Origin: Roseomonas sp. | GTDB lineage: Bacteria; Pseudomonadota; Alphaproteobacteria; Acetobacterales; Acetobacteraceae | Direction of reading: 5' to 3' | Assembly (NCBI GenBank): GCA_020249125.1 | Contig: JADCGG010000172.1 | Span: 1-32,957 of the forward strand | DNA length: 32,957 nt | In this document: positions 4,648 to 32,957 of the stretch, one piece after another | Numbering within the stretch: position 1 is the first letter of the stretch | Layout: each line of letters opens with the position of its first letter | Notes under the pieces: generated by a model | What the model was told of the DNA's origin: nothing | Database searches by the model: none | Seen by the model: the letters and a program-made list of their open reading frames with translations, nothing else | Program-made: the position numbers and the translations under genes

Positions 4648-6522
4648 ATGGCCCGAGCATCGGCCAAATCCTCACAAGGTCGCGGCGCGCCCCCCCGCAG
4701 CCCGGCCAGAGAGGCTCTCGGCGCGCGTCTTTCCGCCCCCCCCTCTCGTCCTGCGGCGCGTCCGCGGCGGCGCTGGGCGCTGCTGCGCTTTGGTTTCCTC
4801 GCGATGATCTGGGGGCTGATCGCGGCGTCCTTGGTATTGCTGGCCCTGGCCTGGGATTTACCGCGCCCGGAAGCAGCGCTTGCCACAACGCGCCGGCCTT
4901 CCACCACGCTGCTTGCATCTGATGGCAAGCTGCTTGCGACCAATGGCGATTTGTATGGGGAAACACTCCGGCTGCGCGATATGCCGGCGCATCTGCCGGC
5001 GGCCTTCATCGCCATTGAGGATCGGCGCTTTCGCGACCATTGGGGGATAGACCCGATCGGCCTCGCGCGCGCTGTCTATGCCAATTTCACCTCGGGCCGT
5101 GTGGTGCAAGGGGGATCAACCCTCACGCAGCAATTGGCGAAAAACCTGTTCCTGACACCGGAACGCAGCCTGAAGCGCAAGGCGCAGGAAGCGATACTGG
5201 CCTTTTGGCTGGAACGCCGCTTCAGCAAGGATGAATTGCTGGAGATTTATCTGAACCGCGTTTACCTCGGCGCCGGCACCTATGGCGTGGATGCGGCGGC
5301 GCGGCTTTATTTTGGCGTCTCCGCACGGCGGCTGACGCCGGGACAGGCGGCGGTGCTCGCGGGGCTGCCGAAATCGCCCTCGCGCCTCAATCCGCGCGTC
5401 AATCAAGGGGCGGCAATGGCGCGCGCCTTGGAAGTGCTGACCGCCATGACAGAAATTGGCGCGCTGACAGCGACCCAGGCCCTGCGGGCGGCTGAGGCCA
5501 TAAGTTTCCCCCCTGCACCATCACGCGATGCCGGCTGGTTCGCCGATTGGGTGCAGGAAGGCATGGCGGGGCGCGCGCCTGGCAATGCTGACCTTGTCTT
5601 GCGCAGCACGCTTGACCCGGTGCTGCAAGCGGCTGCCGAGGCGCGGATTGACGCCATCCTGGCCGGGCCGGGCGCGCGGGCCGGGGTATTCCAGGGCGCG
5701 GTGGTGGCGATGGATGCCGCAACCGGCGCGGTGCGCGCCATGGCAGGTGGCAAGGATTACCGGAATAGCCCCTTCAACCGCGCGACCCAGGCGCGGCGTC
5801 AGCCTGGCAGCGCTTTCAAGCCATTCATCTTCCTTGCCGCCCTGGAAGCCGGGCTGGGTCCGCAGGATATGGTGGCCGATACCGCGCTTAATCTTGGCGG
5901 TTGGTCACCAAGCAACGGGCAATGGCGCGCGCGTGGTGAAATCACGGTGGAGGAGGCTTTGGCGCAAAGCGTGAATACCTCGGCCGTACGGCTGATGCAG
6001 CGCGCCGGCGGGCATCGCAAGGTGGCGGATGTGGCGCGCCGCGCGGGGCTTGATGGTCCTTTCCCGCGCGATGCGACAATCGCGCTCGGCACCGGCGAAG
6101 TGGCTTTGCTTGATCTGGTGGCGGCTTACGCGCCTTTTGCGAATGGCGGCTTTCGTGTGGAGCCTTTTGGCGTTGCGCAGGTGCAGGCCGAAGGGCGGCC
6201 ATGGCCCTTGCCGCGGCCACAGCCCGAACGCGCCTTTTCGCCGGAATATATGGAAGCCATGCGCAGCATGATGGCAGCCGTGGTGGCGCGCGGGACGGGG
6301 CGCGCAGCGGCCATCCCTGGCCGGAGCGTGATCGGCAAGACCGGCACCACCCAGGAATATCGCGACGCCTGGTTCATCGGCATCAGTGGCGGCCTTGTGA
6401 TGGGCGTTTGGCTTGGCAATGATGATGGCGTGCCGATGGATAATGTTGCGGGCGGCGGGCTGCCGGCGCGGCTGTTTCGCGAAATCCTGGAAAGCGCCAG
6501 TGTCGCCAGCCCAAGGGGATGA
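4648..6522 (+). CDS. Class A penicillin-binding protein (PBP1A/1C-like transglycosylase-transpeptidase)
   Basis: From ATG 4648 it has 624 residues; GTG 4633 is an alternative. A proline/arginine-rich cytoplasmic tail is followed by one membrane anchor (FGFLAMIWGLIAASLVLLAL). The GT51 glycosyltransferase domain shows EDRRFRDHWGID (catalytic Glu about 124) and GGSTLTQQLAKNL. The transpeptidase domain carries all three active-site motifs: SAFK (Ser about 388), SVN (about 441) and KTG (about 564). It polymerises lipid II and cross-links peptidoglycan in the periplasm. It lacks the C-terminal extension of E. coli PBP1c and is compact, ending about 60 residues after KTG. The open frame extends upstream antisense to the MFS gene, so the N-terminus is uncertain. 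Confidence 0.92.
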   Translation: MARASAKSSQGRGAPPRSPAREALGARLSAPPSRPAARPRRRWALLRFGFLAMIWGLIAASLVLLALAWDLPRPEAALATTRRPSTTLLASDGKLLATNGDLYGETLRLRDMPAHLPAAFIAIEDRRFRDHWGIDPIGLARAVYANFTSGRVVQGGSTLTQQLAKNLFLTPERSLKRKAQEAILAFWLERRFSKDELLEIYLNRVYLGAGTYGVDAAARLYFGVSARRLTPGQAAVLAGLPKSPSRLNPRVNQGAAMARALEVLTAMTEIGALTATQALRAAEAISFPPAPSRDAGWFADWVQEGMAGRAPGNADLVLRSTLDPVLQAAAEARIDAILAGPGARAGVFQGAVVAMDAATGAVRAMAGGKDYRNSPFNRATQARRQPGSAFKPFIFLAALEAGLGPQDMVADTALNLGGWSPSNGQWRARGEITVEEALAQSVNTSAVRLMQRAGGHRKVADVARRAGLDGPFPRDATIALGTGEVALLDLVAAYAPFANGGFRVEPFGVAQVQAEGRPWPLPRPQPERAFSPEYMEAMRSMMAAVVARGTGRAAAIPGRSVIGKTGTTQEYRDAWFIGISGGLVMGVWLGNDDGVPMDNVAGGGLPARLFREILESASVASPRG

Positions 6523-25064: not shown

Positions 25065-25828
25065 GCCAGAGCATGACCGCCCCCGCGCCGCTTGCGATTA
25101 CGCATCTGACAGTCGCTTACGGCGACAAGACAGTGTTGTGGGACATCACCTGGCAGGCGACGCCGGGGCTTACCGCCATTGTCGGGCCGAATGGCGCGGG
25201 CAAATCCACGCTGCTGCGCGCCGCGCTCGGCCTGATCCCGAGCATTGCCGGCGATGCGCGCTTCTTTGGCCGCAAGCTGGAGGAAGTGCGCAACCGGGTC
25301 GGTTACCTGCCGCAGCGCGCTTCGGTGGATTGGGATTTTCCGGCCAGCGCGCTCGATGTCGTTTGCATGTCGCGCTATCCGCGCATGCGCTGGTGGGGCC
25401 GTGTGCCGAAGGCGGAACGGGATGCGGCGCTCGGCGCTTTGGAACAAGTGGGGCTGGCTGATCTCGCGGATCGGCAAATCGGGCGGCTTTCCGGCGGGCA
25501 GCAGCAGCGCGTCTTTCTGGCGCGTGCATTGGCGCAGGATGCTGACCTGTATTTGATGGATGAACCCTTCGCCGCGGTTGATGCGGCAACGGAACAGGCG
25601 ATTATCGCCGTGTTGCGCCGCGTGGTGGCAGCGGGGCGCAGCGTGATAGCCGTGCATCATGATCTGGCGACGGTGCCTGCCTATTTCGATCATGTCTTGC
25701 TGCTGAATGGCCGCGCCGTTGCGGCGGGCCATGTGAAAGCCGCCTTCACGCCGGATGCGATTGCGCGCGCCTATGGTGGGCGGCTCAATGTGCTGGAACA
25801 GGCAGTGGCTGAAGGCGGGCTCAGGTGA
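25061..25828 (+). CDS. Metal ABC transporter ATP-binding protein (TroB/MntB-type)
   Basis: The 255-residue ATPase starts inside the stop of the binding-protein gene (ATGA). Walker A GPNGAGKST is at 42-50, the signature LSGGQQQR at 143-150, Walker B LYLMDEP at 163-169 and the switch His near 200. The Q-loop reads LPQRASVDWDFP (83-94), characteristic of the manganese/iron/zinc SitB-MntB-TroB-PsaB group and unlike ZnuC. It powers import through the two following permeases. The stop overlaps the first permease start (GTGA). Confidence 0.94.
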   Translation: MSQSMTAPAPLAITHLTVAYGDKTVLWDITWQATPGLTAIVGPNGAGKSTLLRAALGLIPSIAGDARFFGRKLEEVRNRVGYLPQRASVDWDFPASALDVVCMSRYPRMRWWGRVPKAERDAALGALEQVGLADLADRQIGRLSGGQQQRVFLARALAQDADLYLMDEPFAAVDAATEQAIIAVLRRVVAAGRSVIAVHHDLATVPAYFDHVLLLNGRAVAAGHVKAAFTPDAIARAYGGRLNVLEQAVAEGGLR

Positions 25829-27117
25829 GTCTGGGCTATAACACGCTGGTTGTTTTGCTGGGCTGTGCCTTGCTGGGGCTGGCTTGCGGCACGGTCGGCG
25901 CTTTCGCGCTGTTGCGCGGGCGCGCCTTGATGGCCGATGCGGTCGGCCATGCTGCTCTGCCGGGGGTGGTACTGGCAGCGATGATCGTCGCCACGCTTGG
26001 CGGCAATCCGCGCGCGCTGCCGCCCTTGCTGGCGGGCGCCCTGGTCGCGGGCGTGTTGGGTGTGCTGGCGGTGCAGGCACTCACGCGCGGGCGACGCATT
26101 CGTGAAGATGCGGCCATCGCCATTGTGCTTTCAAGCTTCTACGCCCTTGGCGTTGCGCTGCTGTCCTATGTGCAGACCATGCCGCAAGCGGCGCAGGCAG
26201 GGCTTGGCAAATTCATCCTGGGTCAGGCGGCCGCAATGCGCGCAGAAGATGCGCTTTGGGCCGGCGGCATTGCGGCGTTTTCCGTGCTGATCTGTCTGGT
26301 ATTATTCCAGCGCCTGCGCGCCGCATGCTTCGATCCCGATTACGCGCGCGTCATGGGGCTCTCGGTGGCGCGCACCGATCTGATGCTGCTGGCGCTGATT
26401 GTGATTGTTGCGGTGGCAGGCTTGCAGGCGGTGGGGTTGGTCCTGGTGGTGGCCTTGCTTATTCTGCCGGCGGCGACGGCGCGGTTGCTCACGCATCGGC
26501 TGCCCGTGTTGTTGCTGGTCTCGGCCTTTCTGGGCGCTTTGGCAGGGGCTTTGGGCGCGGCGGCTTCCGCCTTTGAACCGGAATGGCCAACCGGCGCGGC
26601 GGTGGTGCTGGCGGGGGCGATTTTCTTCACCTTGGCTTTGCTGCTGGCGCCAGAGCGTGGCGTGCTGCCCGAAGCCTGGCGCCGCACGCGCCGACGCATT
26701 GCCGCGACCGAAAGCCATTTCCTCCGCGCCGCCTGGGAAGCGCAGGAAGCCGCTGGCGCCGGCCCCGGCACGGCGGGCGATCGCTGGACACCGATTGCCG
26801 CGCTGGCCGCCGCGCGCGGCTGGTCTGAGGGCCATGCATCGCGCTTGGCTCTTTGGCTTGGGCTACGCGGCTTGCTGGCGCGGGCGGATGGAGAAATTCA
26901 TCTGACACCGCGCGGTGCCGCAGCTGCGCGGCGCGCGGTGCGGGCGCATCGCGCGGTTGAGCTGCATCTGCTCGGTCTCGGGGCCACGGATATCGCGGGC
27001 GCGGATCGGCTGGCGGATTTGGTAGAACATGGCCTGCCGGCTGAAATGGCGACGCGGTTATTGGCAGAGCCTTCATCGCTGCCGGCATCGCCCCATGCGT
27101 TAGGTCCACGATCATGA
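25825..27117 (+). CDS. Metal ABC permease fused to a C-terminal DtxR/MntR-like domain (MntC/TroC-type)
   Basis: The 430-residue protein starts at GTG 25825. Residues 1-275 hold the ABC-3 permease domain of about eight helices (GHAALPGVVLAA, FDPDYARVMGL, GLQAVGLVLVVALLILPAATA). The remaining 150 residues are cytoplasmic: a winged-helix-like region (WTPIAALAAARGWSEGHASRLALWLGLRGLLA...) and a DtxR-like helical part. His375, Glu379, Asp398, Glu401 and His402 fall at the same spacing as DtxR H79, E83, C102, E105 and H106; an acid three residues before Glu-His also occurs in MntR. B. subtilis MntC has the same domain order, as I recall. The domain may sense cytoplasmic metal and gate transport. Confidence 0.92.
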   Translation: MSLGYNTLVVLLGCALLGLACGTVGAFALLRGRALMADAVGHAALPGVVLAAMIVATLGGNPRALPPLLAGALVAGVLGVLAVQALTRGRRIREDAAIAIVLSSFYALGVALLSYVQTMPQAAQAGLGKFILGQAAAMRAEDALWAGGIAAFSVLICLVLFQRLRAACFDPDYARVMGLSVARTDLMLLALIVIVAVAGLQAVGLVLVVALLILPAATARLLTHRLPVLLLVSAFLGALAGALGAAASAFEPEWPTGAAVVLAGAIFFTLALLLAPERGVLPEAWRRTRRRIAATESHFLRAAWEAQEAAGAGPGTAGDRWTPIAALAAARGWSEGHASRLALWLGLRGLLARADGEIHLTPRGAAAARRAVRAHRAVELHLLGLGATDIAGADRLADLVEHGLPAEMATRLLAEPSSLPASPHALGPRS

Positions 27118-31405: not shown

Positions 31406-31954
31406 TTACGCCGCCGCGTCTTCTTCCGACTGTGTCGCAACGGCCAGGGTGCCGACCGCGGCGTTCAATTCAGACTGCGTGCACAGCCCCAGAATAACGG
31501 GATCGCGCGGCTTGATATTCGCGCTGTTCCAATGGGTCTTGTCGCGCACCTTGGCGATGGTTTCCTTGGTGGTGCCAAGCAGCTTCACAATGGTTGCTTC
31601 CTGCACCTGCGGGAAATTGCGGAGCAGCCAGGCAATCGCGTCCGGGCGGTCACTGCGCTTGGAAACCGGCGTATAGCGCCCGCCCTTCGCCTTGGATTTC
31701 GGCAAATGGCTGGCTTGCCGGACCATTTGCAGCCGCGCTTCACTATCCGCTTCACAGCGTTGGATTTCTTCGCGCGTCAATTGACCATTGGCAATCGGGT
31801 CATAGCCGAGAATGCCTTGCGCCACTTCGCCATCCGCGATGGCTTGGATTTCAAGCGGGTGCATGCCGACAAACTCGGCGATCTGGTCGAAAGTAAGCGC
31901 GGTCTTGTCAATCAGCCACACGGCAGTGGCCTTGGGCATCAAGGGCTGGTTCAT
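31406..31954 (-). CDS. trcR: Cell-cycle transcriptional regulator TrcR (DUF1013)
   Basis: The 182-residue protein starts at ATG 31954 (MNQPLMPKATAVWLIDKTALTFDQIAEFVGMHPLEIQAIADGEV) and matches the alphaproteobacterial DUF1013 family throughout, including LTREEIQRCEAD, KSKAKGGRYTPVSKRSDRPDAIAWLLRNFP and KLLGTTKETIAKVRDKTHWNSANIKPRDPV. Two helix-turn-helix-like segments are visible. In Caulobacter the TrcR protein associates with RNA polymerase and cell-cycle gene control, as I recall. This gene is almost restricted to alphaproteobacteria and supports the taxonomic call. Confidence 0.94.
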   Translation of the reverse strand: MNQPLMPKATAVWLIDKTALTFDQIAEFVGMHPLEIQAIADGEVAQGILGYDPIANGQLTREEIQRCEADSEARLQMVRQASHLPKSKAKGGRYTPVSKRSDRPDAIAWLLRNFPQVQEATIVKLLGTTKETIAKVRDKTHWNSANIKPRDPVILGLCTQSELNAAVGTLAVATQSEEDAAA

Positions 31955-32061
31955 GGCATAACCTCAAGGGGCGGGCGGGCGAGAGAAACCCCCGCCATGT
32001 TGCGGTTCCTATAGAGAGAGGCGCGGCCAGGGTCAAAACCCGCCCGCGTGAGGAGGTTTGG

Positions 32062-32256
32062 ATGGCGCTGATGGACGACGAAGAAAGGCCCCGGAGCGCG
32101 CCGCGCTTCAAGCCCATGGTGTTTGACGGCTGGGATGTGGCGCAACTCAAGGAGTATATCGAGTCCCTGAGGACCGAAATCAGCCGGGCCGAGGCCGCCA
32201 TTGGCGCGCGGGATGCCCAGCGCCTGGCGGCGGAGGCGTTCTTCAAGAAGGGGTGA
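32062..32256 (+). CDS. DUF1192 family protein
   Basis: The 64-residue protein starts at ATG 32062 after GGAGG with long spacing (GAGGAGGTTTGG). MDDEERPRSAPRFKPMVFDG followed by WDVAQLKEYIESLRTEISRAEAAI matches DUF1192: a short charged head and one amphipathic helix. Function unknown; it is typical of alphaproteobacteria and often adjacent to trcR-like genes. It is divergent from trcR with about 107 bp between starts. Confidence 0.88.
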   Translation: MALMDDEERPRSAPRFKPMVFDGWDVAQLKEYIESLRTEISRAEAAIGARDAQRLAAEAFFKKG

Positions 32257-32335
32257 GGCGGCGCTGTTCGCGTTTTGTTTTTTCTCTCCCCCTACCACTT
32301 GTCGGTGGCGCCCTGCCATGAAGTCAAGCAGATTC
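32257..32335 (+). other. T-rich region flanking the CRISPR array (candidate leader or terminator)
   Basis: A T-rich tract (TTTTGTTTTTT, from about 32274) lies directly after the DUF1192 gene and before the first repeat. A small stem-loop follows, CTACC (32292-32296) with GGTGG (32304-32308). It could be the array leader, the DUF1192 terminator, or both. No tracrRNA anti-repeat and no cas gene is present here. Confidence 0.4.
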
Positions 32336-32957
32336 GCCGTGGTTTCCCTACCGACTCCCATCGTGTAGGCTGACTGATCCTGCGAGCGCAGCAACCTTTG
32401 GGCCGTGGTTTCCCTACCGACTCCCATCGTGTAGGCTGAATCAACTGGATTGGAACCCCATCCTTGGGCCGTGGTTTCCCTACCGACTCCCATCGTGTAG
32501 GCTGGATTGTCGAGATTGATCAGGCGGAGCAATGCCGTGGTTTCCCTACCGACTCCCATCGTGTAGGCTGTTTGTGGTTCATCACCCGGACGGATGGACG
32601 CCGTGGTTTCCCTACCGACTCCCATCGTGTAGGCTCTGCGTCGGCGTAAAGCAATGTGTTGTGCGGCCGTGGTTTCCCTACCGACTCCCATCGTGTAGGC
32701 TGGCTGATCATTGATCCTTCATGCACGCTGAGCCGTGGTTTCCCTACCGACTCCCATCGTGTAGGCTGACTGAATTGCTGCGCCAACGTGGCGGGCAGCC
32801 GTGGTTTCCCTACCGACTCCCATCGTGTAGGCTCCGGCAGGAACGCGATGACGCCAACCGGGTGCCGTGGTTTCCCTACCGACTCCCATCGTGTAGGCTG
32901 CGCCTTCCGGCGGCAAATGGCGCGGCATCGCCGTGGTTTCCCTACCGACTCCCATCG
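32336..32957 (+). CRISPR. CRISPR array, type II-C-like, continues past the right edge
   Basis: Ten copies of a 36-bp repeat begin at 32336, 32402, 32468, 32534, 32600, 32666, 32732, 32798, 32864 and 32930; the last is cut at 28 bp by the window edge. All visible bases are identical. Nine spacers of exactly 30 bp lie between (period 66). The repeat begins GCCGTGGTTTCCC and ends CGTGTAGGCT. Within it, CCTAC pairs with GTAGG and CGA with TCG (one bulged T) around a 6-nt loop. The 36/30 geometry and the repeat ends resemble type II-C arrays; from memory, the Azospirillum sp. B510 type II repeat has the same start and TAGGCT end. No cas genes are in the window. Strand of transcription is unproven. 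Confidence 0.97.

Follow-up and report, generated by a model that had tools for sequence, protein, structure and literature searches.

A CRISPR array at the edge of a Roseomonas contig very probably belongs to a complete type II-C CRISPR-Cas locus divided by the assembly

The CRISPR array at the right end of the window, by which is meant the whole stretch of 32,957 nucleotides analysed here, almost certainly belongs to a complete type II-C CRISPR-Cas locus, of which it forms the half distal to the cas genes. The window is an entire contig (G000:C82) of a draft genome of 3,533,715 bp in 323 contigs, which is 93% complete with contamination given as 1.29%, and its right end falls inside the array. 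The remainder of the array lies with cas9, cas1, cas2 and a putative tracrRNA gene on another contig of the same genome, the 4,882-bp C52, and together they apparently make up an ordinary, intact type II-C locus that the assembly has divided. The elements that carry this reading, all demonstrated at the level of the sequence, are the array, the cas9-cas1-cas2 set, the predicted tracrRNA anti-repeat, terminator-like hairpins and conserved synteny.

The array is real, and a re-reading of the sequence returned the originally predicted coordinates, 32336-32957 on the + strand. It contains nine complete 36-bp repeats, mutually identical (0 mismatches), and nine spacers, each measured as 30 bp in agreement with the original prediction; repeats and spacers of these lengths fit type II-C. 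The predicted ten identical repeats are reduced to nine complete ones, as the tenth (32930-32957, +) stops after 28 bp at the end of the contig. Window and contig end at the same base, so it is a break in the assembly that cuts the array off. A genome-wide search allowing up to 3 mismatches recovered 14 full copies of the repeat, all exact, nine on the window contig and five on C52, and none on any other contig. Chance is excluded as the source of these copies because the repeat read backwards, used as a control pattern, had no match in the genome at the same threshold.

The genes to the left of the array are housekeeping genes, as had been claimed, among them those for TrcR, DUF1192, PurE, PurK and cytochrome oxidase subunits. 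The trcR gene (PF06242, Pfam E 2.2e-65; 31406-31954, - strand) serves below as a syntenic marker, and the small DUF1192 gene (PF06698, Pfam E 1.6e-13; 32062-32256, + strand) lies directly upstream of the array. The 5' flank of the array in the crRNA direction (32257-32335, +) is leader-like by its position only; it is partly conserved in the related locus L020 and, to the reach of the contig, in L019. Farther to the left, positions 25825-27117 encode a metal ABC-transporter permease (ABC-3), the C-terminal part of which weakly matches, below the cut-off, the metal-binding domain of iron-dependent repressors, so that the gene is perhaps a permease-regulator fusion.

C52 begins one base ahead of a repeat and carries five repeats and four spacers, followed on the opposite strand by the cas genes. 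Cas9 was found there by a search for RuvC_III. The cas2 gene (C52 358-687; TIGR01573, 82 bits; PADLOC Cas2_II), cas1 (C52 696-1586; TIGR03639, type II, 277 bits; PADLOC Cas1_II) and cas9 (C52 1562-4627; NCBIfam TIGR01865, 604 bits; PADLOC Cas9) adjoin one another as open frames, with cas9 unbroken; its length of 1,021 aa is counted from an ATG chosen inside a longer frame. Pfam HNH_4 and RuvC_III exceed their cut-offs in Cas9, and Cas9_a falls narrowly below its own (25.2 vs 26.9 bits). The best six matches among solved structures are Cas9 chains of 1,082-1,092 aa. Aligned with the top-ranking chain, 8ja0_A, the query retains GIDLG, IEMARD, VDHILPWSR and DDRHHALDA, RuvC and HNH stretches that we take to be catalytic.

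The type II-C reading of the original prediction is supported by this set of genes, their order, the putative tracrRNA and the direction of the array. Cas9 combines RuvC and HNH, a type II cas1 and a cas2 stand beside it, and the only Cas1 in the genome is of type II. No cas4 was detected in the 93% complete genome by a search that was positive in 8 of 14 control genomes. The genome-wide search for csn2 gave no match, in the controls as little as here; the absence of csn2 from the locus, as far as C52 reaches, is read instead from the adjacency of the cas genes and the array, because cas2 is only 56 bases away from the last repeat and a further gene has no room there. Near the related locus L020, 10 ORFs were scanned, of which seven belong to a Pfam family, none of them Csn2 or Cas4, and three to no family. 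Neither of the outcomes that the original prediction had named as contrary to it, neighbouring genes of another type, such as Cas12 or class 1, or a genome without cas genes, occurred.

The cas9-cas1-cas2 set and a tracrRNA-like element, which had been predicted to lie beyond the window edge, thus occur in this genome next to the second part of the array, and their adjacency to the window is deduced from the following observations. The window's terminal 29 bases, consisting of the cut tenth repeat and the base preceding it, are identical to the first 29 bases of C52. This identity alone proves nothing because 28 of the bases are repeat. The join is supported because the repeats occur only at these two contig ends and because L020, one of three loci in relatives of the same genus (L018, L019 and L020), is syntenic and unbroken. 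In all three relatives the same repeat lies beside a Cas9 that is 85-87% identical to that of C52. In L020, a single contig carries the anti-repeat, cas9, two ORFs of 296 and 109 aa, equated with cas1 and cas2 by their lengths, an array of six repeats and then TrcR. Positions 31439-32701 of the window, which include TrcR, DUF1192 and the first repeats, align with positions 11578-10311 of L020 at 83%. The two contigs therefore most plausibly carry, on the strength of this synteny, the halves of one locus separated by a gap of uncounted repeat units.

An orphan array, or one of a different CRISPR type, is extremely unlikely, as is the idea that goes with it, that the assembly is mixed and C52 has strayed in from a foreign organism. 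A draft of 323 contigs in which the junction falls between two contigs leaves some room for such an error, but the identical repeat confined to the two contigs, the same-genus genome in which a single contig bears a cas9 relative, this repeat and the TrcR of the window, the single type II Cas1 and the contamination value of 1.29% all argue against it and for a divided type II-C locus.

Four of the 35 genomes of the genus examined, our own included, carry this Cas9 (G000, G008, G013 and G023), and 14 of all 99 genomes have a Cas9 match. Another genome of the genus, G029 (contig G029:C60; L030/L038), encodes a distant Cas9 with 35% identity in the best piece, from which it follows that at least two kinds of Cas9 occur in the genus. 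The loci L018, L019 and L020 resemble that of C52 in Cas9, repeat and tracrRNA region. They differ in the DNA that follows the tracrRNA, and L018 and L020 have no spacers in common with the array studied here; L019 holds no complete spacer.

An anti-repeat complementary to the GCCGTGG end of the repeat, which had been predicted, is present on C52 at 4676-4701, where it forms with bases 1-26 of the repeat a predicted, uninterrupted helix of 26 bp. The predicted duplex of the repeat with C52 4670-4761 has an energy of -58.8 kcal/mol, whereas 300 base-shuffled repeats yielded a mean of -26.9 (sd 3.7) and a minimum of -39.1 kcal/mol. The anti-repeat is followed by a small stem and a GC-rich terminator-like hairpin with a T run, and all three elements are conserved in the four loci aligned (4/4). 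Rfam gave no tracrRNA match at E <= 1. Because of the pairing with the anti-repeat, the crRNA would be read from the + strand of the window, against the cas operon, which is the arrangement of type II-C according to PMC3936727. The array and the cas operon converge on a 14-bp hairpin between the last repeat and cas2. The hairpin is perfectly paired in three of the four loci, and a change from T-A in this genome to C-G in L018 and L019 preserves the pairing; the L020 version contains one bulged base besides a G-U pair, and its opposite strand folds more weakly. The hairpin may act as a two-way terminator for the convergent transcripts.

The final sequence of C52 (4763-4882) has 16 matches in the genome, itself included, several of them at contig ends, and eight of the 16 span at least 115 of its 120 bases. 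An insertion element probably ends here. The sequence starts immediately beyond the terminator-like hairpin, at a place where different DNA stands in the three relatives, and this raises the question of whether a true II-C system has ceased to work, with an insertion-element-like sequence after the tracrRNA and a promoter or array that may be silent. Such a loss of function is improbable: the repeated sequence begins only after the hairpin and so leaves the tracrRNA element intact, the frames of cas9, cas1 and cas2 are open, and the 14 full repeats are identical. In addition, a comparison allowing up to 7 mismatches found none of the 20 complete spacers of three genomes in another of the arrays, a sign of turnover.

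Of what is known of the family, the following sequence of events would apply to such a locus. The array would be transcribed towards cas2, and each crRNA repeat would pair with the tracrRNA. RNase III together with Cas9 would then make the guide complex, with which Cas9 would cut phage DNA carrying a 3' PAM. New spacers would be added by Cas1-Cas2, probably with Cas9.

Thirteen spacers are known, nine in the window and four on C52. The matching of spacers to phage data proposed in the original prediction succeeded in part, in that spacers 8 and 6 match the viral contig L041, but no perfect target was found for any spacer in the material searched, namely IMG/VR for 8 of the 13 by their last 20 bases, phage records for the nine window spacers and 39 genomes for 4 of the 13. 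In the IMG/VR scan, which covered spacers 1-4, 7-9 and 13, spacers 8 and 9 matched one contig each (L041 and L042) and the last 20 bases of the other six had no match. Spacers 6, 7, 8 and 9 matched only their own array in the 39 genomes. Among the matches listed for the nine window spacers against 50,697 phage records none was better than E 0.2, and those of spacers 2, 3, 8 and 9 (E 0.2-0.6) were dropped as chance. The repeat had no match at E 0.001 in 72,556 plasmid records.

Spacer 8 (32834-32863, +) differs from its target in L041 (6719+) by 5 mismatches, all within the first seven positions. The target gene is primase-like: its best match is a family of unknown function and its second a DNA primase family. 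Spacer 6 (32702-32731, +) matches the gene for the terminase large subunit (L041 8619+) on the same strand with 6 mismatches. Five of these fall on third codon positions, and the encoded residues are unchanged in 8 of 9 cases. Could these matches be chance in GC-rich DNA? L041 was chosen because spacer 8 matched it in a very large collection, and reversed-sequence controls reach 8-9 mismatches, so that spacer 2, with 9 mismatches in L041, is alone no evidence; it was rejected as a third match, as 17,046 of 401,999 dinucleotide-shuffled spacers reach 9 or fewer. Of the same shuffles, however, only 3 reach 5 mismatches and 52 reach 6 or fewer, and the chance of a second such match in L041 among the 12 other spacers is about 0.0016. 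Together with the codon pattern of spacer 6, these figures make a chance origin of the two matches very improbable. Spacers 6 and 8 point to one phage lineage, infections by which the locus probably recorded.

In phage records, the L041 terminase reaches at best 33.4% identity and the primase-like protein 34.0%, each with 23 records matched. Among 99 genomes, the L041 terminase has its best match, of 58%, in the same-genus genome G014; three other genomes match weakly and the own genome has none. By nucleotide matches, the G014 stretch (L050, on G014:C18) and L041, with its terminase, primase-like and head-tail connector genes, are collinear between about 4700 and 13300, and the G014 stretch appears provirus-like. 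The site in G014 that is homologous to the spacer 6 target has 9 mismatches. The last 21 bases of spacer 9 (32900-32929, +) match L042 (167+), a doubtful candidate target, with 7 mismatches in all, distributed over the codon positions as 2, 3, 2; of the 13 spacers, no other comes within 9 mismatches of L042.

On their 3' side, the two good targets in L041 are flanked by GCTGCAAGCG and CGCGCAAGGC, which have G-C-A-A-G in common at positions 4-8 (n=2). This motif is shared neither by the flank of the spacer 9 match, ATCGGGCGGT, nor by that of the homologous terminase site in G014, CGGCGCGCGC. As a weak guess from two diverged targets, GCAAG at positions 4-8 is put forward as a PAM candidate. A more far-reaching picture is conceivable but rather doubtful, in which a genus-level Cas9 group, found in 4 of 35 genomes and distinguished by a crRNA:tracrRNA helix that is unusual in its lack of interruptions and by a PAM not yet described, NNNGCAAG or part of it, repeatedly records one phage lineage related to the provirus-like region of its own genus.

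The locus illustrates how synteny can connect a CRISPR array at the end of a contig with the cas genes that belong to it. It adds a compact Cas9 (1,021 aa) and putative guide RNA parts that no paper title among the matches listed describes. No paper on the Cas9 of these bacteria was found by title in open-licence PMC, among the matches listed, nor any in open-licence PMC with 18 bases of the repeat, which weakly favours the original claim that this Cas9 is little studied. New here are the matches of spacers 8 and 6 to the primase-like and terminase genes of one viral contig, which would link an unnamed metagenome phage lineage to this bacterial genus.

In comparison with known systems, the locus is closest in kind to the type II-C system of Neisseria meningitidis. 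Two stretches of its Cas9, 10-741 and 761-1005 of 1,021, align with 8ja0_A, which we take to be NmeCas9; the protein has diverged. The 26-bp unbroken helix predicted here is presumably more even than that of N. meningitidis. The locus contains only cas9-cas1-cas2 and an array predicted to be transcribed against the cas operon, which agrees with the description of type II-C in PMC3936727. Type II-C arrays favour the gain of spacers at the 3' end, according to PMC12638026. PMC10281378 describes a second comparable system, EHCas9, which is a Cas9 from a wetland metagenome with its closest homologues in Alphaproteobacteria and a tracrRNA gene with an anti-repeat upstream of cas9; EHCas9 differs in its length of 1,070 aa and is likened to the Cas9 of C52 by its description.
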